Assembly: GCF_964275005.1 (NCBI RefSeq)
Contig: NC_092705.1
Location: forward strand, 13,238,385-13,302,384
Direction: 5' to 3'
Source: Diadema setosum
Lineage: Eukaryota > Echinodermata > Echinoidea > Diadematoida > Diadematidae
Length of the DNA: 64,000 nucleotides
The notes beneath the pieces were generated by a model that was not told the origin of the DNA, did no database searches, and saw only the letters and a list, made by a program, of their open reading frames with translations. Both the position numbers and the translations under genes were made by a program. Of the stretch, positions 18,501 through 51,600 are shown in pieces. Positions within the stretch are counted from its first letter, which is position 1; the number at the start of each line of letters is the position of its first letter.

Positions 18501-21500
18501 TCTTGATGTCTAATTATTCAACAAACAAACACTCAACTGATACTCTCCAGTATCATCGAATACTGAAGGTCGGCAACTGGGCAATGGCTAATAGTGAAGC
18601 CATATCACTAAACTGCAACAAATTTTGTAGGCTTGCTCATTTTGCAGCTAACTTCATCTCCGGAGGATGCCTAACTCGGCATAATTATCCCGCATTATCT
18701 AATTAGCACGTATTTGATCAGCTACCTAGAGCGTGCCTAATTCCCATGTTATTCCACTAGAATATATGGATTCTCTACTCATCGACGATGGTATTGACAC
18801 AACTAATGCCCCAAGGGTAATCAGCACCATGACAACAGATGTCTATTGTAAGGTAAATAGTCTCAGAGTGCAAACCCATTATTTTGTTCAAGTTCACAGA
18901 GACAAAAGTACATTTTGTAAGACAAGTTAAAAACATTTCTGTCCTTGTCAAACTCGAGATGATTGAATCTTCTCTCGCACTCATTTCAGTTGTTTACAGG
19001 CAATGTAGATTGGGCATATACTAGGCAAATTTGTTTGAAAGTGTACAAGATCCACACATCAAAGGGAAATCTGAAGTGTGATGCAAGAGAAAAGTCAAGT
19101 ACAGTTTAGATGGGAAGACTAATTTAATGGATCCAACATCCTAAACAGAACTATATCCATCTTGGGAGGTCATGCATACATAAAATACATCCAGCAAATT
19201 GGTTCCAACATTGATGGTATCATCAAGTGATGCATATCATTTGGTAGAACTTCCTCTCAGCATTTTGCTGTCTGACTGGGCAAAGTCACTGAATTACTGA
19301 GCGATGTCTCCAGAAATCAGCAAATTTTAGGTCAGCCTGGTTCTTGCTGCCCCAAGGTTTCAGAGCTTTTCATGAAATTGAAGCCTTGACTTACATATTT
19401 CTCTCTTTGATTGGAAGACAATTCTTGATATAAAGAGATATTGCAAATTGATGTGTGAATGATAACGGTAATCATCATCATTATCATCATTACCACAGGG
19501 GTGGAGCCAGGAATTCTGTAAAGGGGAGGCGCCTTTACAAAATGAAAAGCAGGAGCATGCCCCCCACCCCCTCCCTGTTTTCTCTTTATTTCTTTTGTTT
19601 TAACAAGAAATAAAGAGGGGGTGCGTGCCCGGTGCTCCCCCGCCTGGATCCGCCACTGTTACCATCACAATCATCACAACAATATAGATAAAAGAACAAA
19701 TAGATATCATGATAATGGTAATCATCATTCTGTAATCAGCATCATCGTCACGAATGCAGAATATTTATTAAGTTTGATATAAATGTGACAGAAAAAAAAG
19801 GGGAAAAAAAGGTACAGGCAGTGCACTGGACATTCAAAGAGATGTATTGATTGTAATGGCAAAGTTAAGTGACACAGTTTATGGCAGGTCATCAGTTTTC
19901 TCTTTAAAATCTCATCAATCATGCAATGATAACTTTATTCCCAATTGCCATAGTTTGTAAAACATCCTGTCACTTTCTTCTGTCATAATTGAATACTAAA
20001 CGAAATATTGGGGAAAATGGATACTTCTTATGTAAACAATATGAACTGACTTGTTACGACCAAAATCACTCTGAGAATGATCGCACAAAAGAAACAATCG
20101 ACTAATGTTCAGGCGGTTTATTAACAGTGATATTGTGGGTACAGACTCGTAATCGGTTTTCACATCAGTACAATAATGATCAATAGAAACAATTATAACT
20201 CGGTAATGAAATCACTTACACGTGTTACAGTCCAAAATCTGATAATGACGATGTTCACATAGTCCCCTGTTGATGTCCAGATACGATGTTCGACACACAG
20301 ATGAATGGTCCTTGATGCACCGATGAATGATTCCTCCAACGTAAATTCAGAGGCACTGGTTGCAATAATCCACGTTATAAATCCAGGGTATAGGTCCACA
20401 GCAAAATGTGCAGAATCCAATGTTATGACGACCACGTCCAGTCGATGCGTTGAATGATGATTCACTTTATAATGTCCAGCAAGGAATCCAGCCCGTCACA
20501 GCTTTGCCGTAACAATGTCCGTTGACACTAAAATATGGAGTCTATCTCCAATGTAGGCAAATTAATTCTCTGCAGGCAAAATGTCTCCCAGGCCTTATCT
20601 CCACAAACACAGTTTGTATAGCAGGTCAGCAGGTAACACAGGACTGACTATAACAAGTCGCTTCAGAGCCAGAAGTGACGTAACTCTCAGAGCAGAGGTG
20701 TTGGGTACTCTACCTACCTCAGAATTTCTCCTGCTTATATACTATCCATTCACCCCTTTCTAGTACATTCTGTAATTTTCTCCAACCTGGGGCCACATAC
20801 CTGAACATACTAGCAAGTCCAAATTCCAGGAATCCTGGATGACTCACTGCCTAATATGTGCATAACATCATTGCCAAAATTAACTACCAATCACATTGGG
20901 TTACAAGGGCAGTGCCTCACTCAGCCAGCACTTCCTAGAATTTTCTGGAATGGGTTAAATCATTCTAGATTGAATGAGCTATAATGTATTTCCTGTCACA
21001 TGCATACATGTACTGTAGCTACATTGTATACCACATAGAAAATTCTCCACTGATCTGGTCAGCCTGTATGTACTACATCTATATCATATAGAATGTTCTC
21101 CATTAATCTGGTCACCCTGTGTACATACACATTAAACAACCATGCATACAGCCTTGATACATGTACATAACTACTTGTGTGTACATTTGTGACACCATCC
21201 CCCATGGGAAAAAGAAAGCCTTGCCGTAGCAAGGGTTTCTTTTACCTTCACAATTTCTCATTGTTATTTACAACGAGTGTGAGGTAAAATCAAAATCAAG
21301 CAACCATAATCACATACTATCACAGGCCTTTTAAATAGCTGCATTAATTCCATGTTCTCTTTTCATGGATACCAGTTACATTGATATTGCTTGGATTCTC
21401 GAAGCTTATACAATCATGTCAAACTGTTTTGCATACATTAATAGAGCTATTTAAAACACATACACTGTAAGTGATATGCAGTGAAAACTTTTCACCCTTG

Positions 21501-24500
21501 AATTCTACTGTGCTATCGACTACCTATGTCACACCAACTGACTTTCTGTCATAGCACTCTTTCAACAGGTTGACATGACACATTCTCTGTTCTTTGCATC
21601 TGTCTGGCGTACTGAGCACATAGTTCACATCATTGAGTTTCTTTTTGACACAGTATGGGCCACTGAACTTGGCTTTCAGTGGTTCACCTTGTATGGGCAG
21701 CAGTACAAAAACTTTGTCACCTGGTTTGAAGGTTCGGGCTTTGGCATTTTTGTCTGCCTTTCTCTTCATTGAGTCTTGTGACACTTTCAAGTGTTCCCTA
21801 GCTACCTCACAAGCCTTTGAAAGCCTTTCACGAAACTTTGACACATAGTCAAGTAGGTGGACCTCATCATCCTCAGTCATGAATTTCTCTTTGATGAGCT
21901 TCAGTGGGCCCCTAACTTCATGACCGTACACCAACTCAAATGGGCTGAAACCCGTCGACTCGTTTGGGGAGTCCCTCGTTGCGAACAGCAGGAAAGGGAT
22001 GCCCTTATCCCAATCCTCGGGATACTCCTCACAAAATGCCCTAATCATTGTCTTTAGGGTCTGGTGGTAGCGCTCCAACGCACCTTGGGATTGGGGATGA
22101 TAAGCTGACGACTTCAGCTGCTTCACACCCAAACGATACATCACCTCTTGAAATATGCCTGACATGAAATTTGACCCTTGGTCAGACTGCACTTCCTTGG
22201 GCAACCCATACCTAGTGAAAAACTGCACTAGAGCATCTACCACAGTCTTGGCAGTGATATTTCTCAATGGGATAGCCTCTGGAAACCGTGTAGACATATC
22301 CATGATTGTCAAGAGGTACTTATGACCCGACCTAGTCCTAGGCAAAGGTCCAACACAGTCGACTAGAACCCGACTGAATGGTTCTTCAAACGCAGGTATC
22401 GGAATCAATGGCGCCGGCTTCACTGAATGCTGTGGTTTACCAGCCACCTGACATGTGTGACAAGTCTTGCAAAACTCAGCCACATCCACATTCAACCCTG
22501 GCCAATAGAAATGCCTCATGATCCGATCCTTTGTCTTTCTGACGCCTAAATGCCCGCCAACAGGTAACTCGTGAGCAATCCTCAAGATCTCACCGCGGTA
22601 ACAGGGAGGGACAACAACTTGACGGACCACCGTCCAATCCTCATCAGCTGGCCTATGGGGAGGTCTCCACTTCCTCATCAAAATGCCATCTTTGACATAA
22701 TAGCACTCAGGGACCTTTTCGGCCTCAGCCTCAGAACACGCCGTCTGAGACAAGCCTTTCAACTCAGAGTCTGCCTGCTGTGCTTCAACCAAGGAAGACT
22801 TGCTAAACAGCCCATCACTGTTAGCCTCGGAGCCTAATACAGCAACCCCATCATTCAAATCCTTGAAAAAGGTTTCTGCCAACCAAACACCGGAATTCTC
22901 CTCCACATCAACAGAATCCGCATCATCTTGAACAGCTCTACGAGCCTGAGACCTAGTCACAACACAATCTGGGAAAATCCCAGGAAACTCCTCCTGCAAC
23001 TGCTCAGTTTCAGCAACCACCACTGGTTTATCCGAAACAACTGGAGACGCAACCACCTTGTCCCCAGCCAAGTCATTCCCCAACAGGAAGTCAATGCCTG
23101 CCATGGGCAACTCAGGAACAACTCCAACAGTAACAGGACCAGAAACTAGGTCACACTTCAAATCCACTCTATACAGTGGTACTGACATATAACTGCCATC
23201 AACAGTCTGAATCAAGACTTTTGCATTAACTGCACTATCTGGTGGAAAAGTCATACCACCATCCACCATCAACGACTGAGAGGCCCCCGTATCCCGCAGG
23301 ATGACTACTGGTTTACCTGCCTCACCAGAAGTACATGGGGTCACCTCACCATCAAACAAAAAGCTACGACAGCTCTCATCCACCTGCTTCAGCCTATCTT
23401 TGAATTTGGGAGATCGACTTTCAATGGCCTGTGTTTCACTGAACGGGACACTATTTTCGGGTAGGACACTTTTTGACATGACAAATCCCACCTCCTTCGT
23501 TGCACCATTTTGCAACTTCCAACATTGCGACTTTATGTGCCCTTTCTTGTGACAATGAAAACATCTGATGACATTTGCACTTGTACTGGACCCTTTGTCA
23601 GATTGAGGCTGTGGTGCAGACAACATTCCTGAACCAGCATTCTGTTGGTTGCTCGACTGATTTTTGTCTCTCTTATTTCCAGAGAAATTTCTGAAAGGTG
23701 GTCTGTTTTCATGTCTGTGAGTCAACTCATACTCATCAGCCATAAAGGCTGCTTTATGCAAACTTGTCACTTTGTGATCTTCCAGGTGCAACCTCACACT
23801 GAAAGCAACACTCTTTTTGAATTCTTCCAAGAGAACAACCTCACGTAGGTTATCAAAATCCTGATCCACTTTCAGGGATCTATACCACCTATCAAACGTC
23901 ATTTCTTTTTCACGAGCAAACTCAACATGTGTCTGGCCTGGTTTGCGGTACGAATTTCTGAACTTGTGTCTGTATGCCTCTGGCACCAACTCATAAGCAT
24001 TCAGCACTGCCTTCTTGACTGTAGCATAGTCACGTGATTGCTCTTTTGAGAGAGATGAGTACACATCGGCAGCTTTGCCGACAAACACACTTTGAAGGAG
24101 CAAGGGCCAAAATTCCTGTGGCCAGTTCAAACTGTTAGCCACCTTCTCAAATGACACAAAATATGCATCAACTCTGTTTTCCTCAAACTTTGGCACCAAT
24201 CGAATGTTCTTGGCCAAATCAAATTCAGGGGGAGCCCTTTCATGATTTCCAACAGTCTGTGCATGAGCCATTTCCATCTCACGCAATTTCACTTGTTGCT
24301 CCACCTCAAATTTCTTCTGTTCCATTTCAAATTTCTTCTGTTCCATTTCAAGTTTCTTCATTTCCAGTTCTTTTTGTTCTTTCTCCCTCTCTCTTTCCAA
24401 TCTCATCTTCTCTTTCTCCATTTCCAATCTAGCTAGCTCAAGCCGTGTTTGATCTGAAATTTGAGCTTGATCTGGAGTGTCAATTTCTTCTTTGAGCTCC

Positions 24501-27500
24501 ATGTGACCAGCTACCAAGTCAAGAATTTCTGCCTTCCTTACACCTTGTGGAACATCAACATTCCAATGCTGTGCAATAGCAGTCAAATCACATTTGCGTA
24601 ACCTTTGCAAATCTTTGAGGGACAAATCTGTCCTCTGAACAAATGCCTGAACATCCATTGTACTGATTGACATTGTCACATGTATTACACACAATGTACA
24701 ATTGAACAATCAACTCACTGGTATTTTGTCTGTACCAATATTCTGGATTCCGGAACGTTCCAAATTCTAAGTTTTGGCTTTAAATTCACTTCTCGGACAC
24801 AAGCCTCCAATTTTGTTACGACCAAAATCACTCTGAGAATGATCGCACAAAAGAAACAATCGACTAATGTTCAGGCGGTTTATTAACAGTGATATTGTGG
24901 GTACAGACTCGTAATCGGTTTTCACATCAGTACAATAATGATCAATAGAAACAATTATAACTCGGTAATGAAATCACTTACACGTGTTACAGTCCAAAAT
25001 CTGATAATGACGATGTTCACATAGTCCCCTGTTGATGTCCAGATACGATGTTCGACACACAGATGAATGGTCCTTGATGCACCGATGAATGATTCCTCCA
25101 ACGTAAATTCAGAGGCACTGGTTGCAATAATCCACGTTATAAATCCAGGGTATAGGTCCACAGCAAAATGTGCAGAATCCAATGTTATGACGACCACGTC
25201 CAGTCGATGCGTTGAATGATGATTCACTTTATAATGTCCAGCAAGGAATCCAGCCCGTCACAGCTTTGCCGTAACAATGTCCGTTGACACTAAAATATGG
25301 AGTCTATCTCCAATGTAGGCAAATTAATTCTCTGCAGGCAAAATGTCTCCCAGGCCTTATCTCCACAAACACAGTTTGTATAGCAGGTCAGCAGGTAACA
25401 CAGGACTGACTATAACAAGTCGCTTCAGAGCCAGAAGTGACGTAACTCTCAGAGCAGAGGTGTTGGGTACTCTACCTACCTCAGAATTTCTCCTGCTTAT
25501 ATACTATCCATTCACCCCTTTCTAGTACATTCTGTAATTTTCTCCAACCTGGGGCCACATACCTGAACATACTAGCAAGTCCAAATTCCAGGAATCCTGG
25601 ATGACTCACTGCCTAATATGTGCATAACATCATTGCCAAAATTAACTACCAATCACATTGGGTTACAAGGGCAGTGCCTCACTCAGCCAGCACTTCCTAG
25701 AATTTTCTGGAATGGGTTAAATCATTCTAGATTGAATGAGCTATAATGTATTTCCTGTCACATGCATACATGTACTGTAGCTACATTGTATACCACATAG
25801 AAAATTCTCCACTGATCTGGTCAGCCTGTATGTACTACATCTATATCATATAGAATGTTCTCCATTAATCTGGTCACCCTGTGTACATACACATTAAACA
25901 ACCATGCATACAGCCTTGATACATGTACATAACTACTTGTGTGTACATTTGTGACAGACTGTTAATTTCAATATTCCACATTATATATTCAGTTTTTCCT
26001 CTTTTACCTTAGACAAAGTGCATAGTGAAAAAAAAAATCCATCATGTGTTGCTGCAAACTACTTTAAAATTGAAAATATCATAGGAAAAAAATTCAACCA
26101 TAAGGGCCTAGTTGAAAAATGAAATACTGCTTCTGAATGCCTGTAATGACTAATGCATACAAAAGGGCTTTAAAAGAACTTAATCATCCCTTCCAGGGAC
26201 CATCTCATTCTATTTGGCGACCGTCTCTATGGTTACACGTGATGCAGCCATCACTGATGCTATCACTAACCCCTCCTCTCGTCGTCATGGAAATGATAAA
26301 ACCAAGCTCACGGAGGTAGGGACAGTGTGTGATGAATGATTCAGCAAAGAGACATGCCGACGGGGGTACCATCAGGTAACTTGGTGATGCCATGGGAAGC
26401 CTCATTGCAGATAACATACAGGGATCTAGTATGTGTGTGTGTGTGTGTGTGTGTGTGTCTGTCTGTCTGTCTGTCTGTCTGAGGTAATGTGTGTATAGGT
26501 CTGTGTCAGTGCAGTGTACACGTCTGGATTAGTATGTCCGTGTCAGTGTGAGTATAGGTTTCTGTTAGTGTGTATGTGTATGTTTACCACAGAGTGAAAT
26601 ATCACTGGACAGCACAGGATTTCTGAATGCTTAATATTTCTATCTATTTTTTTTTTTTAATTCAGTTCGATTATTGCTTTCCTTCACCACATACAAAGAC
26701 AAAGAAAGCACAATGTATGAAAACTTGACATCTGATTGAAATAATCCAGACAGAATAATTTCACAACATTGTGATCACTGTCACAATGACAGTGACATAA
26801 TATCACAGAAAATAAAAGACACCAATACACACACATACACGCAGACACTTAAACATCAAGTTAATCTTAACCCTTACTGTCCTTCAAGAGTCAATTGGCC
26901 AAACCCTGGAGTGCTTTCTTTGCTAGCTGTCTCGTAGAGATGAATGAAAACTAACTGTCAATGAACAGAGATTACCTAAACTCCCTAATCTTCCTAATTC
27001 CCATTGTGTAACAATGACCTTGCTGTTGGACTGGGCCACTGGTTTGTCTGAGTTTGTTGTCCAACTTTTCATTAAAAGTCAAGGGGGATTGACCCACTGT
27101 GGGCTTTGAGTGCTGACTTGCACAGAAAACCCCATAGTATTGTACACACACTCCAAAGTCCCTGGTACAAAAAGGGTTAACTGAGAGCTATACAAACAGA
27201 GGTGCTAGGTGCCTGGGCACTATAGGTTTGAAAGGTGTCCATAAGTAGTTAGGTGATTTTTCAAGAGTTGCAACCATTTTTAGGTGCTAAGTATACTTTG
27301 CTTTTCTTTGTGTACATTGTTTGTTATTCTTTCTCCACAATTTCCATTAGGTTTTAAGCATTTTTGTCATGTTTCCCACAAACTCACCTTAGGCATGAGT
27401 AGTCCGTAAGGAAAAGTGCCCCCTATGGGCCGCCTCAGGAACGAGGCCTTTTTCCAGTCGTGGTCAACCATAAACATCCTGGAGCCATAGATCATGCGTT

Positions 27501-36116: not shown

Positions 36117-37429
36117 ATGTCTTCACACTAGCAGAAGCATGACAGCGGCTGCAAATCAGATAATGTTCAATCATTGTGTTTTTTATGGAAAAAGATGGGG
36201 AAAGCAAGGGAAACATAACAAAAAGCATTATTTCACTCTGAAAAAAACAACAACACATCATAAGTAAATGAACTAGCCTATGGTAGCAGAACTGATCACC
36301 TAGTCTGATTGCAATTGCAAGGTATGCCATTATGAACCACTTCAGCATGACTTGGTGTGCCAAGAACATTGTGCATAATTTACTACCTTGGCAAGAATGA
36401 AAAGAACTAATACTACTACAGTTGTACTACTATCACTTTAACTGTTCATACAATATAGATACCGTACTACTCCAACAATTCATACTAATTCTGTAGCCCC
36501 TACTATCATCACTACCACTACACTGCTACTACCGGAACAAATAATACACAATAATTCCTTGGTGTGCACGTAAAGAGAAAGAAACAGATAGAGCAATGTA
36601 GTATCGAAACCTCCATATATCATGACACAAATTTGAAATGTGTCCATGAGTTCCAATGGGGAGAAAAATAGGCGGCTTTGGTATTCAGGCATCTCTAAAG
36701 GACAACTGGTAGTCACAACATTAATGTGACCATGGCATTTCCACCTGTAATCTTAATGTAATCCTCCTATAATTGTTTCACCCTCTATACCCTGACAGAG
36801 GTCTCATCAAGGTCAATACCAACATACAGCCCGACCTCTATTACCCAGCTAGATGTCGCGACTGGCGCCCGCTCATATGAGCAATCTGACTGGATATGGG
36901 AGAAACGATGTTTATGTGCATTTACATGTGATAGCTGCCGACCCAGTGGTAGCTAAGTAGGTAGCGTGCACCACAACTGTTGTGTAGTCTATGCTATATA
37001 CACATAGCCTACTGTGCTTTAAATTATAGTTGTTGGTTTTTTGTTACAGAAATGGAAACATTTCAATGTAAAATTCAGAACATAATTTTGTCGGGAATAG
37101 TCACAGGTAGATCTTGTGAGTTTCTAGGAGTTTTAATTGAGTTTGAAATCACTTTTTTTCCCTGTCTTCAAGGCGTGAATGCATCCGGATGATATAAGAA
37201 TTCCAAACAGTAAAGAGAATGCCAGATAATTGAGGTCGGACTATATCTGGTTTGGCAGAAAGGGCACTATGGTAGCCATTAACAGATAAGCTAATGACAT
37301 TTTGATAAATGGAACAATACTTCTTGGGTTTGAGGGGTTTTTTTGTCCATTCATAACTATGGACAACAATGAGGGAATTTGAAAACACATAGACCAATCA
37401 GCAACCTTTTGAGCAAATCTAAATAGATG
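36117..37429. other. Intergenic or upstream intron sequence, no gene seen
   Basis: Nothing beyond short AT-rich stretches is recognised. If the MINDY4B-like 5' leader lies in the duplicated unit, this is its first intron. Confidence 0.4.
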
Positions 37430-40400
37430 GGCCACATTCACAGAGCCATTGTGCTTACACCTAGTTTCCCCAAGCAATTATTCTACTGTATATTACCAGT
37501 GCTGTCACTATTAAGCATTTCAAATTTCCATCAAGTGGGTTTCCTCTATAGGCAGAGATATCTAATCATGAAATTAACTGCATATCTGTGCGCTCATTGT
37601 CGTCATAGCATCACGAAAGCTTGCTGAGGTCGTGCATCCATTTCCACGACGCCCATCAATCTACCCTCGTTGAATGGACACAAAACCTGGTTAAACTTTC
37701 ACGGCCGGGGCAATTCTGCAAATTGAATTCGCCTGGCGACGGTATGACCGCAACAATTCAAACACCACTTTTTAATTTCTTGCCATCTGGGAATTAGAGT
37801 AATTGCATGATACTTGTCAACCTCACTTTTGTGTGTCTGTCTCTTTTTATTTTTCATTCTCTTTCTATATTACTGTACAGACTTTCTCTCCCTCCATCTT
37901 TCTCTCTATCTCTCTGTTCATCTATCTATCTGCAGACCTGAGTAATTTTCATTACTTATTTTCCTTGTTTGCTACTTGTGTGCTCTCTACTCCAATTTCT
38001 CTTATTCAAATCAGATTCACTTTGATGTATTTTTTATTACAACATCTATCTAAACACAACTTTATATAATTATCTCTCTCTGATTCTGTCCTTTAATTTC
38101 TTAACCTTCTTGTCTCATTCATAATATGTTCTCTTCAGGTGTACGTCCATGTTAGGATGCTCATCATTCTATCTTCAAATTATTAATCAGGAAAATAGAT
38201 AGCTCACAAAGATCATGTGGCAGTAGATGCTGAATTTTTAAATTTCATCTCATTACTGGTATTTCATTTTTTTTTTATCCATAAAACTCTTGCACTTACA
38301 TTTTTTCTTTAATGTCCAATCTGTGCCTTACACTCCCAACCCAGGTGAAATGTACTTTGACTATGGAATAGTTCATGTCATTGGCATTTGATGATAATTT
38401 CACATTTATTTGTTGATAATTTCACATTTATTCGTTGATAATCATGAAATATATCTTTTGAAATACATAAAACTTTCCATCTTTTTATGAAAATGGAGAG
38501 ATATATTAATACTAGCTGAATGTGATGCACAGTTGACAAAGACATGCATAATGTTTTCTGCACCTATAAAATGCAGGCAAAAAAAAAAAACAAAACAGTG
38601 AAAACATGGACAACAATAAGTCCTATCTACTGTATATGCATGCTTATACAGCAATATATATAGCTGCAGAATAAAAATAGAATATATGACAGATATCTTG
38701 GTTGAATTTGAAAAATATATACATACATGTGTGAAAACATGTTTGAGTGTGTACGTGCATGTTTGTGTGTGTTTGGTTGTGAGTGTGCAGGCATAAGACA
38801 ACGACAAGGCTATGTAAACCTTCTCTTTGTTTGGGGAAATAACAGTGTATTGATCCAACAGATTTGTCCTCAGTCTTTGATACCTTGTAAGTAAGTGACA
38901 TAATTTTGTGCATGTTGAATGGGAACAGTAGACTAAACACATCATGTCACTTCTGTAAATATGTCTAATACTAGGACATTCCGGTGAACACTCACTGCTC
39001 TTTTATGCAATGGAAATCTAAGTCTGAGATTTCGGTATCCCAAGAGACGGAAATATGCAAGTCATCATAGGCCAAAAGGAAAGACGGGGGAAAAACACTG
39101 CAGTTTATAACACACACACCAAACAGCAGTTCAATCATCAAACAGAAGCTTATTGGTGGCTCTGTGTGTTAACAAACAATGGCCGCCCTCAAAGAGATTC
39201 CTCAAAAGGGATCACCGGGTATTGATTACTTCTCTGCACACAACAGTCAGTCCATTGTGGGAGCAGCTACATCAAGGAATCTTTGACACACTAGACTATG
39301 GTTGACAAAGAAAACTTTGGTGAGAAAATTGCTATAACTGCTGCACAATGGCTGGGTAGCTCCATTTGAACTCTAACTGCAGGAACTAGACATAATGTAA
39401 GCCCTCATTTTTCTTTTACTGTACAACAGATATGTGGGAACTTTGAGCTGATCTGTTTTGATCATATACAATGCCTACAACTTTATATCCCAGCAGTTGA
39501 GTTTGTTTGCTGTAGCTGGAAGAAGAAAATGAAATCTGTCCTATTGCTATAACATGATGATAACATCTCTTTTACGGTGAGTGTCTCCTACAAACAAAAG
39601 TGAAAAATGTCATCACATATTGAGATAATCCATTTCGTGCATTGTACAAGACATTATTTCTGTCTTTTGAAGCACCCACATAAAATGCCTTAGAAAATGT
39701 ATGCCAAAAAAACATACATTTACAACAAATTTAAATGTTAGAACCTCACTCATATATTGCATGACTTTTTATCATAAATGGTACATGTAGATGAGTACTG
39801 GTATGCAAAGTTGTGCTGTAACATAGCCTAATTATTGTTCTTTTTTCCTAGCAATATGAATGTTAGGAAAAGATTCCAACTTCTTACATTGACAAAACAA
39901 TAAAGACTCGGGGGGGGGGGGGGTATCAACTTTGATACATAAGTGGAAAATGGGAGATCTTACCAATTTTTTTTTTAAGCTCATGTTATTTTTAAAGTAA
40001 ATCAACAAAATCATGTGGACTGTTCGTGCAAACGATACCTCTCTCTTCCAAAGAATTTTCTTTTTCTGCAGTCTTATGATATCTGGAATCTTTCTGATAT
40101 GAGTGGTTAATAAGGACTTTATCCTTCCCTTTCTTAAGAAATATGTTACACTCACATGCTGTATTTTACTGTATTCAGCATCATTCTGGGTTTTTTTCCT
40201 GGCACACAGTACATGAAAGATGACCTGAATTATTGTACAACTTGTGCAAATATCACTGAAAGAATAAAAGAGATGGAGGGATTAACAGAATTGTACATAT
40301 GAACAAAAAAAAAAGGAAATGGAAAAAAGTATAGGAAAATAAGGGCTATTTTAATCATAACTTCCAAGATTATTCCTTGGAAAGGTTTTAGTATGTTCAG

Positions 40401-40835
40401 ATCTGAAAGTGGGCTAACTCTAGATTTTGAAAAATGTCACTTATTCCTTTTTGCAATCAAACTCCAGGCAACGCAAACGTCTGCTTAGCAGGTAATCATA
40501 TTATTTAGTTTATTTATGATATATGTTTGATAATTTTTATTGTATGATATGTTTGTATGCTATATTATTTATATACTCACTATACACTCATTTCCAGTTA
40601 TACATTGTTGAATGTGTTGCAAAGTGCCAAAAAATATTGCCAAGTATGTCATGTAACTATTAACTCATGCTCAACTTATATTTAATATATTGTGTATATG
40701 ACTTCAGATTTGTTATGCTCAAAAACATATATTTCGTTTCACAAACAGACATTAAAGCTGAGGAAGACCACGGTCGAAAGCTTCACATCTCTGCCGGTTT
40801 CATGCGACATCTTCTGTTATCTACATTGTCTCAAC

Positions 40836-40840
<5 letters not shown>

Positions 40841-40888
<48 letters not shown>
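40841..40888. repeat. (TA)n-(GA)n microsatellite (duplicated at 46,538)
   Basis: A TA run passes into a GA run, and both copies of the tandem duplication carry it. It follows a retroelement-like word GAAGACCACGGTCGAAAGC. Confidence 0.85.
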
Positions 40889-40891
<3 letters not shown>

Positions 40892-41926
40892 GCTCTCACC
40901 TGTCAGTAAATATCTAGTTTTTAGAAGATTATTTATTGATTAAATAATATTTTAGATTGTTAAATAGGATAGCATTCTAGATTGCCATACTGACAGAAAT
41001 AAATGACAGACTGATACAGACAGTGATAGATAGGTAGAGATGGCAGTATAGTAGAAATATAAAGAGAGAGATAAATTACTAGATGAAATGAAATATATCA
41101 GTTGGTATTAGAGCCCAGAGCCTATAGATAGGAGAAATATTTACAATTTGGCAATAATAATTCTATCCACATACATATCCAGACTCTTCTATACAATAGA
41201 GAGACATAAAGCAACAAAATTATATTATTAGATTGTGTCCAAGGGCTGCCAACCTCCGCAGACAAATTACAAGCAAATAAACAAACAAACAACCACACTA
41301 AAATGCATGGTAAAATGCACATATAGCAAACATCTTTAATTTCTGGCTTCAATATCTACAATTTCATACACTACACATACTTAACAAAAACAAAAATCTC
41401 ATAAAATATGTTAATTCTAAAACATATTTTCTGCAGTATGCAAAAAGCATAAAACTGCAACAGCTGTAGACCAGTGTCGTGTCCAGTTGTAAGAAGAAAA
41501 ATGCAGTAATAATGACATTAATTCTAAAAAACTGCACGGGGAACACTCTGGGAAGTACAGAGAAAGAGGTATTCTACCCCATAAGGATATCTATCACATC
41601 TGTATCTCTGTATTCAGAAACAATATCTAGAGGTATAGCTTACACCCTCCAAACATCCCGCATCAAAAGTACGGGTTTAGATTTTCACATCCCGCTGAGC
41701 CGAGGAGAGTGACAGGCAGCGGGTTTTCAAAATTTTCGTCCCCGCGTGTCGGGGGAGAAATCAATAGAGTATCGCTCTCGGAAGAGCGCTTGTGTCGCGG
41801 AAGGGGTCGCACACCCGAAAGCCTGATAGTTTGTAGTAGTGTATTCGCCCTAAATTACGTCTGACGAAATATCTTGAAAACACATAATTCTTACGACATA
41901 AATCAGATGGACAGTTCAAACCTTAC

Positions 41927-41990
41927 CTTCGATTAAATCCGCCTGTCAATAACTTTAAACCATCAGATGCACAAATTCACAGTATATAAC
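41927..41990 (-). promoter_or_regulatory. Candidate TATA promoter and leader exon, copy A
   Basis: On the minus strand GTTATATACT (41,981-41,990) lies about 55 bp before a strong GAAG/GTAAGG donor at 41,927. A leader of about 30 nt would splice to the acceptor at 35,775 in front of the MINDY4B-like start codon. The sequence beyond the TATA is CpG-richer than the surroundings. This is an inference from signals only. Confidence 0.3.
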
Positions 41991-42496
41991 GACAGTTTCA
42001 GAAGCCGTGCACGTCTGTCAGGTGGAACAACTATGCTGTATCTCAACAAGTTTGCAGTCTGCATCAACGGTGCACGGTGCACCGCAAGATCCGGTGATCC
42101 TGCTTATCGTACACAATGATGATGCTGGTGTTGGGTATGCCGCTTCAGTTGCCCCCAAGGCCATTGACTCCTGTGGAAAGCTGGCAGACCGAACTTCGCC
42201 CCTACCATCATAGACCTGATAAAGGTATAAAGTGATTGCTTATAGAGGAATGGATGCAGGTCGGGTCGACTTCTGCGGTTACCAAAACATGACAGGGGTG
42301 ATGCCAAGCCGCGATGAAGAGAATTAAAACATCCATACACATCACCTTGCTGGGTCGTATTACTTCGACTTTTGTACTAACTTGCCATTTGATGAGAACA
42401 GTTTCTCGAGTAGGAGCAGAGAGGTGAAAAGACCGATACATGGGCGTCACCAGGGGGGGGGGGTGCGTTGGGTGCGAACGCACCCCCCTTCAGCCC

Positions 42497-42545
<49 letters not shown>

Positions 42546-43127
42546 CTAGCGACCTCAACGCCGGACGATAAATAATTATACTTTTTTTTTTTTAATTTTG
42601 CACCAGGGACAACAAATTCGTGGGCAGAAACAATTTGCACCCCTGGCTCTGGCAGCACTGATTTTATCATATCTACTAGTATTCTATACAATGTTTACTA
42701 TTTATCAACCGTACTGTACATCCGTACGGTACGGAGCACGTACGAGTTTGCATGTACGTGTGCTACTTTCAAGTATGTCGGGTCTATGCACGTTACTTCT
42801 GACCAATCCATATTGCCAGCCCAAGTGCGAGCCTTAAAAAACAAAACAAAACAAAAAAATGGAGGGGCAAGTATATCATTTTGCCCACCCCCCCCCCTCC
42901 ATAATTCCAGAGACGAGAAGATTTCCTTCTTACCCTTTTTTTTTTTGACAGAAAAAAAAAGTTGCCCCCATAGAAATATTGGAGGAGCAAGCATATTATA
43001 ATTTGCCTCCACAATTAATAATTAATAATTGTTAAATTAGAAGATTTTCTTGCTTTTGAAAGAAAAAAATATGTTGCCCCCATAAAAATATTGGAAGGCA
43101 AGCGCACCATTTGCCCCACCCCACATT

Positions 43128-46100
43128 GGCCACATTCACAGAGCCATTGTGCTTACACCTAGTTTCCCCAAGCAATTATTCTACTGTATATTACCAGTGC
43201 TGTCACTATTAAGCATTTCAAATTTCCATCAAGTGGGTTTCCTCTATAGGCAGAGATATCTAATCATGAAATTAACTGCATATCTGTGCGCTCATTGTCG
43301 TCATAGCATCACGAAAGCTTGCTGAGGTCGTGCATCCATTTCCACGACGCCCATCAATCTACCCTCGTTGAATGGACACAAAACCTGGTTAAACTTTCAC
43401 GGCCGGGGCAATTCTGCAAATTGAATTCGCCTGGCGACGGTATGACCGCAACAATTCAAACACCACTTTTTAATTTCTTGCCATCTGGGAATTAGAGTAA
43501 TTGCATGATACTTGTCAACCTCACTTTTGTGTGTCTGTCTCTTTTTATTTTTCATTCTCTTTCTATATTACTGTACAGACTTTCTCTCCCTCCATCTTTC
43601 TCTCTATCTCTCTGTTCATCTATCTATCTGCAGACCTGAGTAATTTTCATTACTTATTTTCCTTGTTTGCTACTTGTGTGCTCTCTACTCCAATTTCTCT
43701 TATTCAAATCAGATTCACTTTGATGTATTTTTTATTACAACATCTATCTAAACACAACTTTATATAATTATCTCTCTCTGATTCTGTCCTTTAATTTCTT
43801 AACCTTCTTGTCTCATTCATAATATGTTCTCTTCAGGTGTACGTCCATGTTAGGATGCTCATCATTCTATCTTCAAATTATTAATCAGGAAAATAGATAG
43901 CTCACAAAGATCATGTGGCAGTAGATGCTGAATTTTTAAATTTCATCTCATTACTGGTATTTCATTTTTTTTTTATCCATAAAACTCTTGCACTTACATT
44001 TTTTCTTTAATGTCCAATCTGTGCCTTACACTCCCAACCCAGGTGAAATGTACTTTGACTATGGAATAGTTCATGTCATTGGCATTTGATGATAATTTCA
44101 CATTTATTTGTTGATAATTTCACATTTATTCGTTGATAATCATGAAATATATCTTTTGAAATACATAAAACTTTCCATCTTTTTATGAAAATGGAGAGAT
44201 ATATTAATACTAGCTGAATGTGATGCACAGTTGACAAAGACATGCATAATGTTTTCTGCACCTATAAAATGCAGGCAAAAAAAAAAAACAAAACAGTGAA
44301 AACATGGACAACAATAAGTCCTATCTACTGTATATGCATGCTTATACAGCAATATATATAGCTGCAGAATAAAAATAGAATATATGACAGATATCTTGGT
44401 TGAATTTGAAAAATATATACATACATGTGTGAAAACATGTTTGAGTGTGTACGTGCATGTTTGTGTGTGTTTGGTTGTGAGTGTGCAGGCATAAGACAAC
44501 GACAAGGCTATGTAAACCTTCTCTTTGTTTGGGGAAATAACAGTGTATTGATCCAACAGATTTGTCCTCAGTCTTTGATACCTTGTAAGTAAGTGACATA
44601 ATTTTGTGCATGTTGAATGGGAACAGTAGACTAAACACATCATGTCACTTCTGTAAATATGTCTAATACTAGGACATTCCGGTGAACACTCACTGCTCTT
44701 TTATGCAATGGAAATCTAAGTCTGAGATTTCGGTATCCCAAGAGACGGAAATATGCAAGTCATCATAGGCCAAAAGGAAAGACGGGGGAAAAACACTGCA
44801 GTTTATAACACACACACCAAACAGCAGTTCAATCATCAAACAGAAGCTTATTGGTGGCTCTGTGTGTTAACAAACAATGGCCGCCCTCAAAGAGATTCCT
44901 CAAAAGGGATCACCGGGTATTGATTACTTCTCTGCACACAACAGTCAGTCCATTGTGGGAGCAGCTACATCAAGGAATCTTTGACACACTAGACTATGGT
45001 TGACAAAGAAAACTTTGGTGAGAAAATTGCTATAACTGCTGCACAATGGCTGGGTAGCTCCATTTGAACTCTAACTGCAGGAACTAGACATAATGTAAGC
45101 CCTCATTTTTCTTTTACTGTACAACAGATATGTGGGAACTTTGAGCTGATCTGTTTTGATCATATACAATGCCTACAACTTTATATCCCAGCAGTTGAGT
45201 TTGTTTGCTGTAGCTGGAAGAAGAAAATGAAATCTGTCCTATTGCTATAACATGATGATAACATCTCTTTTACGGTGAGTGTCTCCTACAAACAAAAGTG
45301 AAAAATGTCATCACATATTGAGATAATCCATTTCGTGCATTGTACAAGACATTATTTCTGTCTTTTGAAGCACCCACATAAAATGCCTTAGAAAATGTAT
45401 GCCAAAAAAACATACATTTACAACAAATTTAAATGTTAGAACCTCACTCATATATTGCATGACTTTTTATCATAAATGGTACATGTAGATGAGTACTGGT
45501 ATGCAAAGTTGTGCTGTAACATAGCCTAATTATTGTTCTTTTTTCCTAGCAATATGAATGTTAGGAAAAGATTCCAACTTCTTACATTGACAAAACAATA
45601 AAGACTCGGGGGGGGGGGGGTATCAACTTTGATACATAAGTGGAAAATGGGAGATCTTACCAATTTTTTTTTTAAGCTCATGTTATTTTTAAAGTAAATC
45701 AACAAAATCATGTGGACTGTTCGTGCAAACGATACCTCTCTCTTCCAAAGAATTTTCTTTTTCTGCAGTCTTATGATATCTGGAATCTTTCTGATATGAG
45801 TGGTTAATAAGGACTTTATCCTTCCCTTTCTTAAGAAATATGTTACACTCACATGCTGTATTTTACTGTATTCAGCATCATTCTGGGTTTTTTTCCTGGC
45901 ACACAGTACATGAAAGATGACCTGAATTATTGTACAACTTGTGCAAATATCACTGAAAGAATAAAAGAGATGGAGGGATTAACAGAATTGTACATATGAA
46001 CAAAAAAAAAAGGAAATGGAAAAAAGTATAGGAAAATAAGGGCTATTTTAATCATAACTTCCAAGATTATTCCTTGGAAAGGTTTTAGTATGTTCAGATC

Positions 46101-46532
46101 TGAAAGTGGGCTAACTCTAGATTTTGAAAAATGTCACTTATTCCTTTTTGCAATCAAACTCCAGGCAACGCAAACGTCTGCTTAGCAGGTAATCATATTA
46201 TTTAGTTTATTTATGATATATGTTTGATAATTTTTATTGTATGATATGTTTGTATGCTATATTATTTATATACTCACTATACACTCATTTCCAGTTATAC
46301 ATTGTTGAATGTGTTGCAAAGTGCCAAAAAATATTGCCAAGTATGTCATGTAACTATTAACTCATGCTCAACTTATATTTAATATATTGTGTATATGACT
46401 TCAGATTTGTTATGCTCAAAAACATATATTTCGTTTCACAAACAGACATTAAAGCTGAGGAAGACCACGGTCGAAAGCTTCACATCTCTGCCGGTTTCAT
46501 GCGACATCTTCTGTTATCTACATTGTCTCAAC

Positions 46533-46588
<56 letters not shown>

Positions 46589-48198
46589 GCTCTCACCTGT
46601 CAGTAAATATCTAGTTTTTAGAAGATTATTTATTGATTAAATAATATTTTAGATTGTTAAATAGGATAGCATTCTAGATTGCCATACTGACAGAAATAAA
46701 TGACAGACTGATACAGACAGTGATAGATAGGTAGAGATGGCAGTATAGTAGAAATATAAAGAGAGAGATAAATTACTAGATGAAATGAAATATATCAGTT
46801 GGTATTAGAGCCCAGAGCCTATAGATAGGAGAAATATTTACAATTTGGCAATAATAATTCTATCCACATACATATCCAGACTCTTCTATACAATAGAGAG
46901 ACATAAAGCAACAAAATTATATTATTAGATTGTGTCCAAGGGCTGCCAACCTCCGCAGACAAATTACAAGCAAATAAACAAACAAACAACCACACTAAAA
47001 TGCATGGTAAAATGCACATATAGCAAACATCTTTAATTTCTGGCTTCAATATCTACAATTTCATACACTACACATACTTAACAAAAACAAAAATCTCATA
47101 AAATATGTTAATTCTAAAACATATTTTCTGCAGTATGCAAAAAGCATAAAACTGCAACAGCTGTAGACCAGTGTCGTGTCCAGTTGTAAGAAGAAAAATG
47201 CAGTAATAATGACATTAATTCTAAAAAACTGCACGGGGAACACTCTGGGAAGTACAGAGAAAGAGGTATTCTACCCCATAAGGATATCTATCACATCTGT
47301 ATCTCTGTATTCAGAAACAATATCTAGAGGTATAGCTTACACCCTCCAAACATCCCGCATCAAAAGTACGGGTTTAGATTTTCACATCCCGCTGAGCCGA
47401 GGAGAGTGACAGGCAGCGGGTTTTCAAAATTTTCGTCCCCGCGTGTCGGGGGAGAAATCAATAGAGTATCGCTCTCGGAAGAGCGCTTGTGTCGCGGAAG
47501 GGGTCGCACACCCGAAAGCCTGATAGTTTGTAGTAGTGTATTCGCCCTAAATTACGTCTGACGAAATATCTTGAAAACACATAATTCTTACGACATAAAT
47601 CAGATGGACAGTTCAAACCTTACCTTCGATTAAATCCGCCTGTCAATAACTTTAAACCATCAGATGCACAAATTCACAGTATATAACGACAGTTTCAGAA
47701 GCCGTGCACGTCTGTCAGGTGGAACAACTATGCTGTATCTCAACAAGTTTGCAGTCTGCATCAACGGTGCACGGTGCACCGCAAGATCCGGTGATCCTGC
47801 TTATCGTACACAATGATGATGCTGGTGTTGGGTGGGTATGCCGCTTCAGTTGCCCCCAAGGCCATTGACTCCTGTGGAAAGCTGGCAGACCGAACTTCGC
47901 CCCTACCATCATAGACCTGATAAAGGTATAAAGTGATTGCTTATAGAGGAATGGATGCAGGTCGGGTCGACTTCTGCGGTTACCAAAACATGACAGGGGT
48001 GATGCCAAGCCGCGATGAAGAGAATTAAAACATCCATACACATCACCTTGCTGGGTCGTATTACTTCGACTTTTGTACTAACTTGCCATTTGATGAGAAC
48101 AGTTTCTCGAGTAGGAGCAGAGAGGTGAAAAGACCGATACATGGGCGTCACCAGGGGGGGGGGGGTGCGTTGGGTGCGAACGCACCCCCCTTCAGCCC

Positions 48199-48254
<56 letters not shown>

Positions 48255-48835
48255 CTAGCGACCTCAACGCCGGACGATAAATAATTATACTTTTTTTTTT
48301 TTAATTTTGCACCAGGGACAACAAATTCGTGGGCAGAAACAATTTGCACCCCTGGCTCTGGCAGCACTGATTTTATCATATCTACTAGTATTCTATACAA
48401 TGTTTACTATTTATCAACCGTACTGTACATCCGTACGGTACGGAGCACGTACGAGTTTGCATGTACGTGTGCTACTTTCAAGTATGTCGGGTCTATGCAC
48501 GTTACTTCTGACCAATCCATATTGCCAGCCCAAGTGCGAGCCTTAAAAAACAAAACAAAACAAAAAAATGGAGGGGCAAGTATATCATTTTGCCCACCCC
48601 CCCCCCCTCCATAATTCCAGAGACGAGAAGATTTCCTTCTTACCCTTTTTTTTTTTGACAGAAAAAAAAAGTTGCCCCATAGAAATATTGGAGGAGCAAG
48701 CATATTATAATTTGCCTCCACAATTAATAATTAATAATTGTTAAATTAGAAGATTTTCTTGCTTTTGAAAGAAAAAAATATGTTGCCCCCATAAAAATAT
48801 TGGAAGGCAAGCGCACCATTTGCCCCACCCCACAT
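43128..48835. repeat. Tandem duplication, copy B (5.7 kb)
   Basis: This is the second copy, ending at CCCCACAT before the unique TAATTCCCGCGATG-containing flank. It is about 10 bp longer than copy A because of a longer A-run at about 48,202-48,249, extra G and C bases in homopolymers and the GGTG insertion. Confidence 0.92.
47624..47687 (-). promoter_or_regulatory. Candidate TATA promoter and leader exon, copy B
   Basis: This is the duplicate of the signal pair at 41,927-41,990, unchanged, 5,697 bp further out. If used, the gene would have two tandem alternative promoters. Confidence 0.28.
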
Positions 48836-49589: not shown

Positions 49590-50735
49590 CCAGTGGCGGA
49601 TCCGGGGGGGGGGGGGCGCACCGGGCGCGTCCCCCCCCCTTAATTTCCAAAGCGAAAAAATATAGCTACAAACGGCAAAAAACTGTAAAATGTCAAAATT
49701 TTCAAGCTCGCTCACTCCGCTCGCTCGCATTTAGTCGTAATGCCATTCTCCTGAAGTTGCTGCCAGTAATTGCCAGCAGTTGCGCCCGGTGCGCCCCACC
49801 CCTTAATTTCCAAAGCGAAAAAATATACTGAGCTACAAACGGCAATTTGGGGATTCTAAAATGTCAAAATTTTCAAGCTCGCTCGCTCCGCTCGCTCGCA
49901 TTTAATTGTTATGCCATTCTCCTGATATTGCTGCCAGTAATTACCAGCAGTTGCGCCCGGTGTCCCCTCTTAATTTCGAAAGCAAAAAAAATATAACTAC
50001 AAACGGCAGTTTTTGGACTGTAAAATGTCAAAATTTTCCAGCTCGCTCGCATTTAATTGTTATGCCATTCTCCTGATATTGCTGCCAGTAATTACCAGCA
50101 GTTGCCGCCGGTGGCCCCCCCCCCCCCCTTGATTTCGAAAGCAAAAAAATATAGCTACAAACGGCAGTTTTTGGACTGTAAAATGTCAAAATTTTCAAGC
50201 TCGCTCGCTCGGCTCGCTCGCATTTAATTATGCCATTCTCCTGATATTGCTGCCAGTAATTGCCAGCATTTGCGTCCGGTGCGCCCCCTTCCTTTATTTC
50301 GAAAGGGAAATATATAGCTACAAACGGCAGTTTTTGGACTGTAAGTCAAAATTTTCAAGCTCGCTCTCTTCGCAAGCTCGCATTTAGTCGTGATGCCATT
50401 CACCTGATGTTGCTGCCAGTAATTGCCGGCAGTTGTGTCCGGTGCGCCCCACCTCTTAAATTCCAAAGCGAAAAAATATGGCTACAAACGGCAGTTTTTG
50501 GACTGTAAAATGTATAATTTTTAAGCTCGCTCGCTCCGCTCGCACACATGTTATTGTTATGCCATTCTCCTGATATTGCTGCCAGTTATTGCATCTTTTT
50601 AAAAACTGCATCTTTTTAAAAACTGTAAAATGTCAAAATTTTCAAGCTCGCTCGCTCCGCTCGCTTGCATTCAATCGTGCAATTCTCCTGATGTTGATGC
50701 CAGTAATTTGTCGTTTCACACCGGCATTCTATAAT
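49590..50735. repeat. Degenerate tandem array, about 120-170-bp unit, about 7 copies
   Basis: The word AATGTCAAAATTTTCAAGCT followed by CGCTCGCTCCGCTCGC recurs near 49,686, 49,857, 50,026, 50,180, 50,340, 50,508 and 50,627. Each unit also has ATGCCATTCTCCTGAT, TGCCAGTAATTGCCAGCA and a C-run. Copies differ by point changes and indels. Confidence 0.85.
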
Positions 50736-51600
50736 CCATTTGTAGGGGGGACAACTCTCTCCCACAACCTCCCCCCTTGCTCGCTTCGCTTGCTCGGGCT
50801 CGGTCTCGTTCATGACATCAGTGTGTAAGAATTAATACTAGAAGTATATCTTAAATGATACCATTTATAGGCAAATTGTTCAATAACAATTTACTTCAGA
50901 ATGTACTGATACCTTAATTAAGCGGGACTTTTTCAAGTCCATGAAACACGCAAAAAACCTGCATCAAATTGCACCATTTACAACATCAAAATGCAAAAAG
51001 TGCCCGTGGGAGGGGGACACTCCCTCCCACATCCTCCCCCTCGCTCACTCCGCTCGCTCTTGCCTGGCCGCGTTCATGATATTCAGTGTAAATATCAAAA
51101 CAGGAAGTTTATTTGGATGATACTATTTTATAGGCAAATTGTTCAATAATAATCTACCACAAAATATATTTCTACCTTAAACAAGTGGGACAGTTTCAAG
51201 TCGATAAAACAAGCAAAAACATGCATCAAATTGCACCATTTACAACATCAAAATGCAATTTCAGTTCTAACCGTGCAGGGAGGGGGTTGGCCCCCTCCCA
51301 CACCCTCCCACACCCTCACCCTCGCTCCGCTTGCTCGGGCTCGGTCGCGTTCATGACATCAGTGTAAGAATAAATATTAGAAATTTATTGAAATGATAGG
51401 TACATTGTTCAACAACAATTTCCATCAAAATGTACTGCTACCTTAAACAAGTGGGACTGTTTCAAGTCGATAAAAACACACAAAAACCTGCATCAAATTG
51501 CACCATTTACAACATCAAAATGCAAAAAGTTCTCACCGTGGGAGGAGGGGGGACAACAGGCACTTCCACACCCTCTCCCCCCCCCCCCACCCCTTGCTGG
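50736..51600. repeat. Degenerate tandem array, about 265-bp unit, about 3 copies
   Basis: TCAAATTGCACCATTTACAA recurs near 50,964, 51,225 and 51,491, each followed by a GGGAGGGGG/CCCTCCCACA block and a CTCGCTCCGCTCGCTC word. The last word is shared with the preceding array. Confidence 0.8.

Follow-up and report, generated by a model that had tools for sequence, protein, structure and literature searches.

A Gmr1-like retrotransposon of Diadema setosum with a multi-copy form lacking reverse transcriptase and an RT-bearing sister with which it appears to recombine

How can a retrotransposon that encodes no reverse transcriptase (RT) have inserted recently in a genome? The question is raised by an element in a stretch of 64,000 nucleotides from the sea urchin Diadema setosum (the window; C22:13238385-13302384), in which a first-pass annotation had noticed a gypsy-type open reading frame (ORF) that passes from Gag through protease (PR) to integrase (IN) and then stops. 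We find that the element is a recently inserted copy of a Gmr1-like Ty3/gypsy retrotransposon, in a form that lacks RT and is present many times in the genome. The reading that we favour, at a probability of roughly 85% and from comparison of the genomic copies, is that one RT deletion segregates in a recombining retrotransposon population, and that the deleted form is moved in shared particles by the RT of a sister form.

The element is a complete long terminal repeat (LTR) insertion on the minus strand, at window positions 20052-25956, with the following parts:

20048-20051, no strand: target-site duplication GACT, left copy (4 bp, written on the plus strand; flank comparison)
20052-21194, minus: 3' LTR, 1,143 bp, TG..CA, same sequence as the 5' LTR
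21195-21203, minus: putative polypurine tract, a purine-rich stretch adjoining the 3' LTR (by eye)
21195-21523, minus: 3' noncoding region, common to the RT-bearing sisters from about its 23rd base on
21503-21556, minus: RT-less junction core (bounds by eye), near-constant in the RT-less copies printed; holds the TAG stop and the deletion point
21524-21526, minus: TAG stop, inside the junction core
21524-24673, minus: Gag-PR-IN ORF, 1,049 codons from the ATG that relatives also have, or 1,061 if counted from the TTG upstream of it (24709)
21560-21661, minus: integrase C-terminal domain, from GPY on (Pfam PF22938, Integrase_p58_C)
22094-22381, minus: integrase core, rve (Pfam PF00665), with D784, D843 and E879 in the 1,061-codon numbering
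22442-22612, minus: integrase zinc-binding domain, H2C2 (Pfam PF17921)
23285-23293, minus: aspartic protease DTG (motif DTGAS), columns invariant in the 17-row alignment
23714-23983, minus: SCAN domain, the capsid part of Gag (Pfam PF02023, 28.8 bits against a cut-off of 27)
24674-24813, minus: leader, from the 5' LTR to the ATG; a TGG a few bases past the LTR may open the primer-binding site
24814-25956, minus: 5' LTR, 1,143 bp
25957-25960, no strand: target-site duplication GACT, right copy (flank comparison)

The two LTRs are 100% identical across 1,143 bp, start with TG and end with CA, and together with the short, intact GACT duplication they mark the insertion as an LTR retrotransposon and bear out the earlier suggestion that it is recent. 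The primer-binding site and polypurine tract are plausible candidates recognised by eye. Within the ORF, the SCAN, Integrase_H2C2, rve and Integrase_p58_C matches all exceed their Pfam cut-offs, the protease is recognised by its DTGAS motif only, and E879 sits slightly past the Pfam rve stretch; the Gag, protease and integrase assignments of the first-pass annotation, catalytic residues included, are thereby upheld. D784, D843 and E879 are invariant in a 17-row alignment of the window protein and 16 relatives, most of which begin near MSIST, the position of the ATG at 24673. No RT or RNase H family is among the seven Pfam hits of the window ORF with E up to 0.1. Likewise, the 329 bp 3' of the stop, said earlier to be free of RT, contain no long frame in any of three frames read and no match to a probe of the RT and RNase H part (RT-RH). 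The N-terminal part of Gag includes a coiled coil rich in E, K and Q repeats (24261-24507), which holds the ORF's most variable 200-nt bin between copies.

The integrase is of the Ty3 type, with H2C2, DDE and GPY, and its best Protein Data Bank match by sequence is Ty3 Gag-Pol. In the relatives of the 17-row alignment, RT and RNase H follow the integrase (Gag-PR-IN-RT-RH), and a DALSR motif stands at the RNase H end in 48 of the 120 relatives listed (1,762 were found), and close variants of it in others. The closest named relatives among those listed are from Lytechinus pictus (65% identical) and Saccoglossus kowalevskii (59%). Since integrase before RT is the unusual order of the Gmr1 clade (PMC6238403), the domain order of the relatives shows that the Gmr1-like assignment, already proposed from the letters alone, was right. 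The window element lacks RT and RNase H where its sisters have them, and is therefore a derivative of this clade and not an autonomous Gmr1-like member.

Is the window copy alone in lacking RT? The whole genome was scanned (912,680,840 bases in 102 contigs). With the 329-bp 3' piece as probe there were 205 first-look candidates, of which 40 were scored, all of them 91-100% matches, and the 20 best after the window's own were fetched. All 20 have the same RT-less junction, with Gag-PR-IN joined directly to the 3' piece and with flanks that differ from the window's, and none of them matches the RT-RH probe. The probe begins with 22 bases that only the RT-less form has, which biases this ranking towards that form, and at least one lower-ranked place of the 40 scored (C18:23466872) is RT-bearing. 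Genome-wide, 120 places match a 26-base pattern across the stop with up to three mismatches; a control pattern gave 0. The first-pass annotation had allowed that RT was deleted from this copy after insertion; such an event, or an assembly error confined to the window copy, is refuted by a junction found at 120 places and in every fetched copy, and the window sequence contains no N.

Eleven of the 20 fetched copies have an intact ORF of 1,041-1,076 codons, and each of these ends in SVGVT, as the window ORF does. A protein search gave, among its best 44 of 2,781 candidates, 38 RT-less places without stops (window included), two RT-less places with one stop, and four RT-bearing places with open frames of 1,549-1,564 codons. 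The RT-less calls of this search were made by frame length, and its ranking by similarity to the window favours intact copies. The element is thus multi-copy, RT-less and provided with an intact Gag frame, as a semi-autonomous element should be. As a separate observation, C12:13818899-13826725 (L040 and L041) contains two RT-less ORFs 4.7 kb apart, with a 3' region, one LTR and a leader between them; this is a tandem pair with a common middle LTR, the pattern that LTR recombination would make.

Did RT act on these copies at all? The LTR pairs are 100% identical in seven of them (the window, L010, L012, L014, L020, L024 and L025), and those of L021, L027 and L022 have one or two differing positions. 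Between copies the LTRs differ: compared with the window LTR, most of the 20 copies have full-length LTRs of 86-94% identity, the split LTR of L009 gives 85-91% in its pieces, and RT-less pieces fetched with a leader probe described below have LTRs of up to 98% identity. Target duplications of 4 bp are exact in 16 of the 18 loci with both flanks and differ by one base in the other two; in three further loci, judged by eye, the duplication is exact in one, has a one-base difference in one and a two-base difference in one. LTRs that are identical within young copies and diverged between copies, at separate target sites, argue that RT acted on the RT-less element. Going by this trace, each RT-less insertion is made by reverse transcription though the element encodes no RT, and the dependence on RT in trans that had been proposed for it holds by inference.

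A reading in which RT is unused, the integrase moving the element in the manner of a Ginger-like DNA transposon, or in which the ORF is a domesticated Gag-integrase gene, could draw on the intact integrase and the lack of RT in the element. Ginger transposons and domesticated integrase genes have no LTRs, the former having terminal inverted repeats or the latter a single-copy locus. Here there are LTRs and about 120 places, which speaks against a host gene, and seven LTR pairs are 100% identical despite divergence between copies, as expected only if both LTRs were newly made from one template. We regard this reading as highly improbable.

Where, then, does RT come from? A second probe, made of the LTR end and leader, gave 973 candidates, of which 40 were scored and the 23 best places considered: the window, two known RT-less copies and 20 new places, fetched as pieces. 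Among the 20 new pieces, 12 are RT-less, six carry RT-RH after the same Gag-PR-IN, and two have no element at that distance, which brings the tally of the best 23 places to 15 RT-less, six RT-bearing and two showing no element. The integrase ends of the six RT-bearing copies are 94-98% identical to the window's, the sister LTRs are 92-98% identical to the window LTR, and the leader, Gag-PR-IN and 3' region are also in common. As expected of an autonomous partner, the sister is in the same genome and shares LTR and leader with the RT-less form, and the earlier proposal to look for partners with RT after integrase was thus borne out. In the sister, integrase lies upstream of RT, and RT-RH is in the same frame as Gag-PR-IN. 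From the last common integrase position to the first common 3' position there are 1,534 bases in the RT-bearing copy L030 and 40 in the window, so that the RT-less form has lost some 1.5 kb net. The TAG stop of the RT-less form is a CAG codon in the sister, within the tether between IN and RT, and the RT-RH deletion lies just past it, which agrees with the earlier idea that the RT part was lost with a stop after integrase.

The RT-bearing form is likewise widespread. A 26-base pattern from its tether, matched to the RT-less pattern, has 70 places (control 0), so that RT-less places outnumber RT-bearing ones by 120 to 70, and a 33-base pattern at the RNase H end has 69, of which 60 are exact. 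A search with RT-RH gave, among the best 84 of 2,412 candidates, 61 places with at least 95% identity and another 23 in the range 61-65%; at 32 of the 61 the match covers the whole piece, is stop-free and lies in an open frame of 1,530-1,612 codons. The places at 61-65% are other Gmr1-like elements of the same genome, many with open frames of about 1,587 or about 1,313 codons. Four of the six RT-bearing Gag-PR-IN pieces (L049-L052) are stop-free, L053 is broken and L054 has an internal deletion. Within L049-L052 the LTR pairs show identities of 100% (949 bp compared), 97.8% (four mismatches plus 22 gap positions), 99.9% and 100%. Both forms include copies that are young and apparently intact.

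The relationship between the two forms was analysed in a Gag-PR-IN alignment of 20 RT-less copies (the window and 19 of the 20 fetched, L018 with its insertion being excluded) and five RT-bearing copies (L054 excluded). In trees of the Gag part and of the PR-IN part neither form is a clade and the copies are intermixed. In 15 bins, divergence between the groups is at most 0.004 above the value within the RT-less group, and fixed differences are confined to six sites, in bin 201-400, the length-variable coil. A nearest-neighbour permutation test found no differentiation in any of seven stretches of these 20 and five copies; for Gag-PR-IN as a whole the nearest-neighbour statistic was 0.693 against a permuted mean of 0.661 (p 0.458). 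Among the RT-less copies, linkage disequilibrium (r2, 94 sites) is 0.42 for pairs less than 50 nt apart and has dropped to 0.05-0.08 past 200 nt, and all four gametes are present in 76-82% of site pairs more than 200 nt apart. Mosaicism is seen even in the ten youngest RT-less copies, where r2 falls from 0.42 below 100 nt to 0.09 past 1,000 nt.

Apart from those six coil sites, the forms are clearly differentiated only beside the deletion. In a comparison of 28 RT-less and six RT-bearing ends, over the stretch 600-100 nt ahead of the stop, divergence between the groups is 0.009-0.024 and matches the values within groups; the final two bins, covering the last ~100 nt, reach 0.135 and 0.167, with two fixed sites. 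A core of ~50 nt around stop and deletion is near-constant in the RT-less copies printed, and RT-bearing-type variants stand beside it in some of them, downstream in L021 and L024 and upstream in L039 (by eye). A near-constant core, exchange beside it and the decay of linkage disequilibrium make it likely that the deletion arose once and later recombined with the RT-bearing form. The RT deletion is thus most likely of single origin by sequence comparison and probably older than the present insertions, and the two forms behave, as far as their variants tell, as one recombining pool. A spliced retrocopy, from which an intron holding RT had been removed, was considered and rejected: the sequence is broken in the tether on the 5' side and, on the 3' side, in noncoding DNA beyond the RNase H stop, and the junction core is not a clean join of RT-bearing sequence (splice sites judged by reading the sequence).

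Does the RT-less form still use its own proteins? In the 12 intact RT-less copies, the ratio of nonsynonymous to synonymous divergence (dN/dS, Nei-Gojobori) is 0.24 overall, with 0.14 for capsid, 0.09 for protease, 0.11 for integrase and 0.40 for the N-terminal coil. As proof of independent selection on the RT-less form this ratio was rejected, because Gag-PR-IN is common to the sister and in a common pool dN/dS alone is no proof of selection on RT-less copies. Two other tests, both indirect, concern lesions and age. There are 21 disabling lesions (stops and frameshifts) in seven of the 20 copies, all private. By contrast, at least two of the 20 copies share the variant in 89 of the 221 synonymous and in 51 of the 212 nonsynonymous cases. 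Age was examined in 25 RT-less copies (the window, the 20 from the 3' probe and four later ones). With three or fewer LTR mismatches over more than 800 bp, the ORF is open in 12 of 12; with four or more, none of nine is fully intact, L017 having kept its frame and apparently not its first ATG. Counting L018, the exception, 12 of 13 young insertions have an open ORF. No dating was possible for L011, L015 and L065. Private lesions, together with open ORFs in young copies, indicate that new insertions seem to derive from intact templates, a conclusion in which we have moderate confidence from the copies compared. The Gag-PR-IN of the RT-less form would then probably still matter.

A finer reading makes the RT-less form a pure parasite, comparable to a defective interfering genome, for which the sister supplies everything; its Gag-PR-IN would be intact only because the copies are young and recombine with the sister. 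Its shorter genome and its larger number of places would fit, and with a common Gag-PR-IN pool selection on the sister alone could keep the frame clean. Broken templates, however, predict lesions common to several insertions, and none of the 21 is; moreover, stop-free frames make up 38 of the 40 RT-less places that the protein search gave, in a list ranked by similarity to the window. We hold such parasitism to be possible, on the unlikely side.

The opposite reading is a two-component mutualism, in which the one-frame RT-bearing form is short of Gag and the RT-less form is kept for the surplus Gag-PR-IN that it gives to both. Because Gag and Pol of the RT-bearing form share one frame, as the single open frame at the 32 places above indicates, such a surplus could matter; the RT-less places are the more numerous, and a like proposal has been published for wheat Quinta and Cereba (PMC11302176, as far as the source was available). 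Barley BARE, also with one ORF, has distinct RNA pools for translation and replication, according to the accessible part of the source (PMC3735527). Against it, other Gmr1-like families share the same single frame, and we find the mutualism doubtful. A two-component animal retrotransposon in its full sense, with RT in the minority form, Gag-PR-IN in both, a balanced recombining population and an RT-less form supplying needed surplus Gag and integrase, is on these grounds rather improbable.

We return to the reading of one RT deletion segregating in a recombining population. A deletion of ~1.5 kb, most likely single and probably old, eliminated RT together with RNase H; what remained was Gag-PR-IN ending at a stop in the tether. 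The RT-less RNA would be packaged together with RNA of the RT-bearing sister, whose Gag-PR-IN-RT-RH polyprotein is the likely source of the RT that has left its trace in the LTRs. Reverse transcription would regenerate the LTRs, and integrase would insert the copy with a 4-bp duplication. Template switching in the shared particles, the presumed site of the exchange that is seen, would swap sequence between the forms, and the deletion acts like an allele in such a pool. Switching between RNAs packaged together is known from Onsen of Arabidopsis, whose family members recombine pairwise during transposition (PMC5668417, source seen in part). The RT-less form's own Gag-PR-IN is probably still needed, or at least supplied.

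Several points weigh against this scheme. The RT-bearing sample in the pool tests is small, five copies and six ends, and chromosomal gene conversion could give part of the exchange, although mosaicism is present even in the youngest RT-less copies. The other related RT-carrying families (61-65%, 23 places among the best 84) could also supply RT. The ORF of L018 is broken by an insertion of ~0.4 kb despite one mismatch in 434 LTR bases compared, private lesions in old copies are partly expected from age alone, and recombination with the sister could have carried the signature of purifying selection into the RT-less copies.

Elsewhere in the window, 37427-48835 holds a block of ~5.7 kb in two tandem copies, which show one mismatch and 15 gap positions in an alignment of 5,713 positions (99.7% identity), either a recent tandem duplication or an assembly artefact. 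At 49633-51530 lie two tandem arrays, one repeating every 322 bp and the other every 263 bp. A 406-codon open frame on the plus strand (58936-60156) has many C2H2 zinc-finger motifs, recognised by eye, and is probably a host-gene exon. Among the related database proteins, P0017 and P0096 are retrotransposon proteins labelled bacterial (Breoghania and Campylobacter), most likely by animal contamination of those assemblies. P0001 (81% identical, 1,172 aa, 30 members), P0087 (1,006) and P0085 (297) are without an RT domain, although member counts may include fragments; P0005 and P0059, like these three from other data sources, are further related proteins without one. P0001 departs from the RT-bearing frame at another place than the window family does. 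Such proteins were set aside as proof of recurrence elsewhere, as at the protein level a stop or frameshift before RT is indistinguishable from a deletion; RT loss may be recurrent in the clade, or these proteins may reflect stops or frameshifts.

Together, the two forms offer a clean natural case in which RT is a public good within a retrotransposon family, with coat, protease and integrase encoded in both. Because they recombine freely except beside the deletion, genome sequence alone can probe which functions are required in cis, how frequently the RNAs are co-packaged, and whether the RT-less form is a parasite or a contributor.

The family agrees with the Gmr1-like clade in its SCAN-type capsid, the origin of SCAN being described in the accessible part of PMC3424704, and, in the sister, in having integrase before RT; it differs in that the window element and ~120 places are without RT and RNase H where the sister has them. 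Among non-LTR elements, HAL1 (half L1, which encodes ORF1p only) also has no RT and has kept a coat-like protein, in the portion of the source available (PMC5753468). HAL1 differs in being a non-LTR element with no integrase. HeT-A of Drosophila is a non-LTR element without RT in which a coat-like protein is kept and integrase is absent. Animal TRIM elements are also non-autonomous LTR elements (ant, PMC3532108; tapeworm, PMC4558846), but they are small, and the available parts of these sources mention no Gag-PR-IN frame. In Onsen, the part of the source at hand describes no segregating RT deletion (PMC5668417).

The closest parallels are in cereals, here as described in the portions of the sources that were available. 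Barley BARE2 has a lost function that is presumably complemented in trans by its close sister BARE1 (PMC9744471), but the loss is the reverse, Gag being lost and the rest kept. Wheat RLG_Sabrina_SA and RLG_WHAM, termed 'semi-autonomous', are high-copy elements with Gag-protease, no RT and an assumed autonomous partner (PMC9744471); unlike the present family they lack integrase, are found in plants and have a partner from a different family, with no freely recombining pool reported. Wheat RLG_Quinta is an RT-less derivative that has LTR parts in common with its partner RLG_Cereba, has kept Gag and is proposed to be of mutual benefit (PMC11302176); it has Gag and an unknown domain without integrase, and its Gag is strongly diverged from that of Cereba, in contrast to the one pool seen here. 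Our literature search found no animal LTR family with Gag-PR-IN and without RT, most subscription journals being outside its reach, and found RT-less LTR elements with a Gag frame for wheat only, without integrase. Within that literature, Gag-only and Gag-protease partners are known from wheat, and an animal form that has kept its integrase is new.

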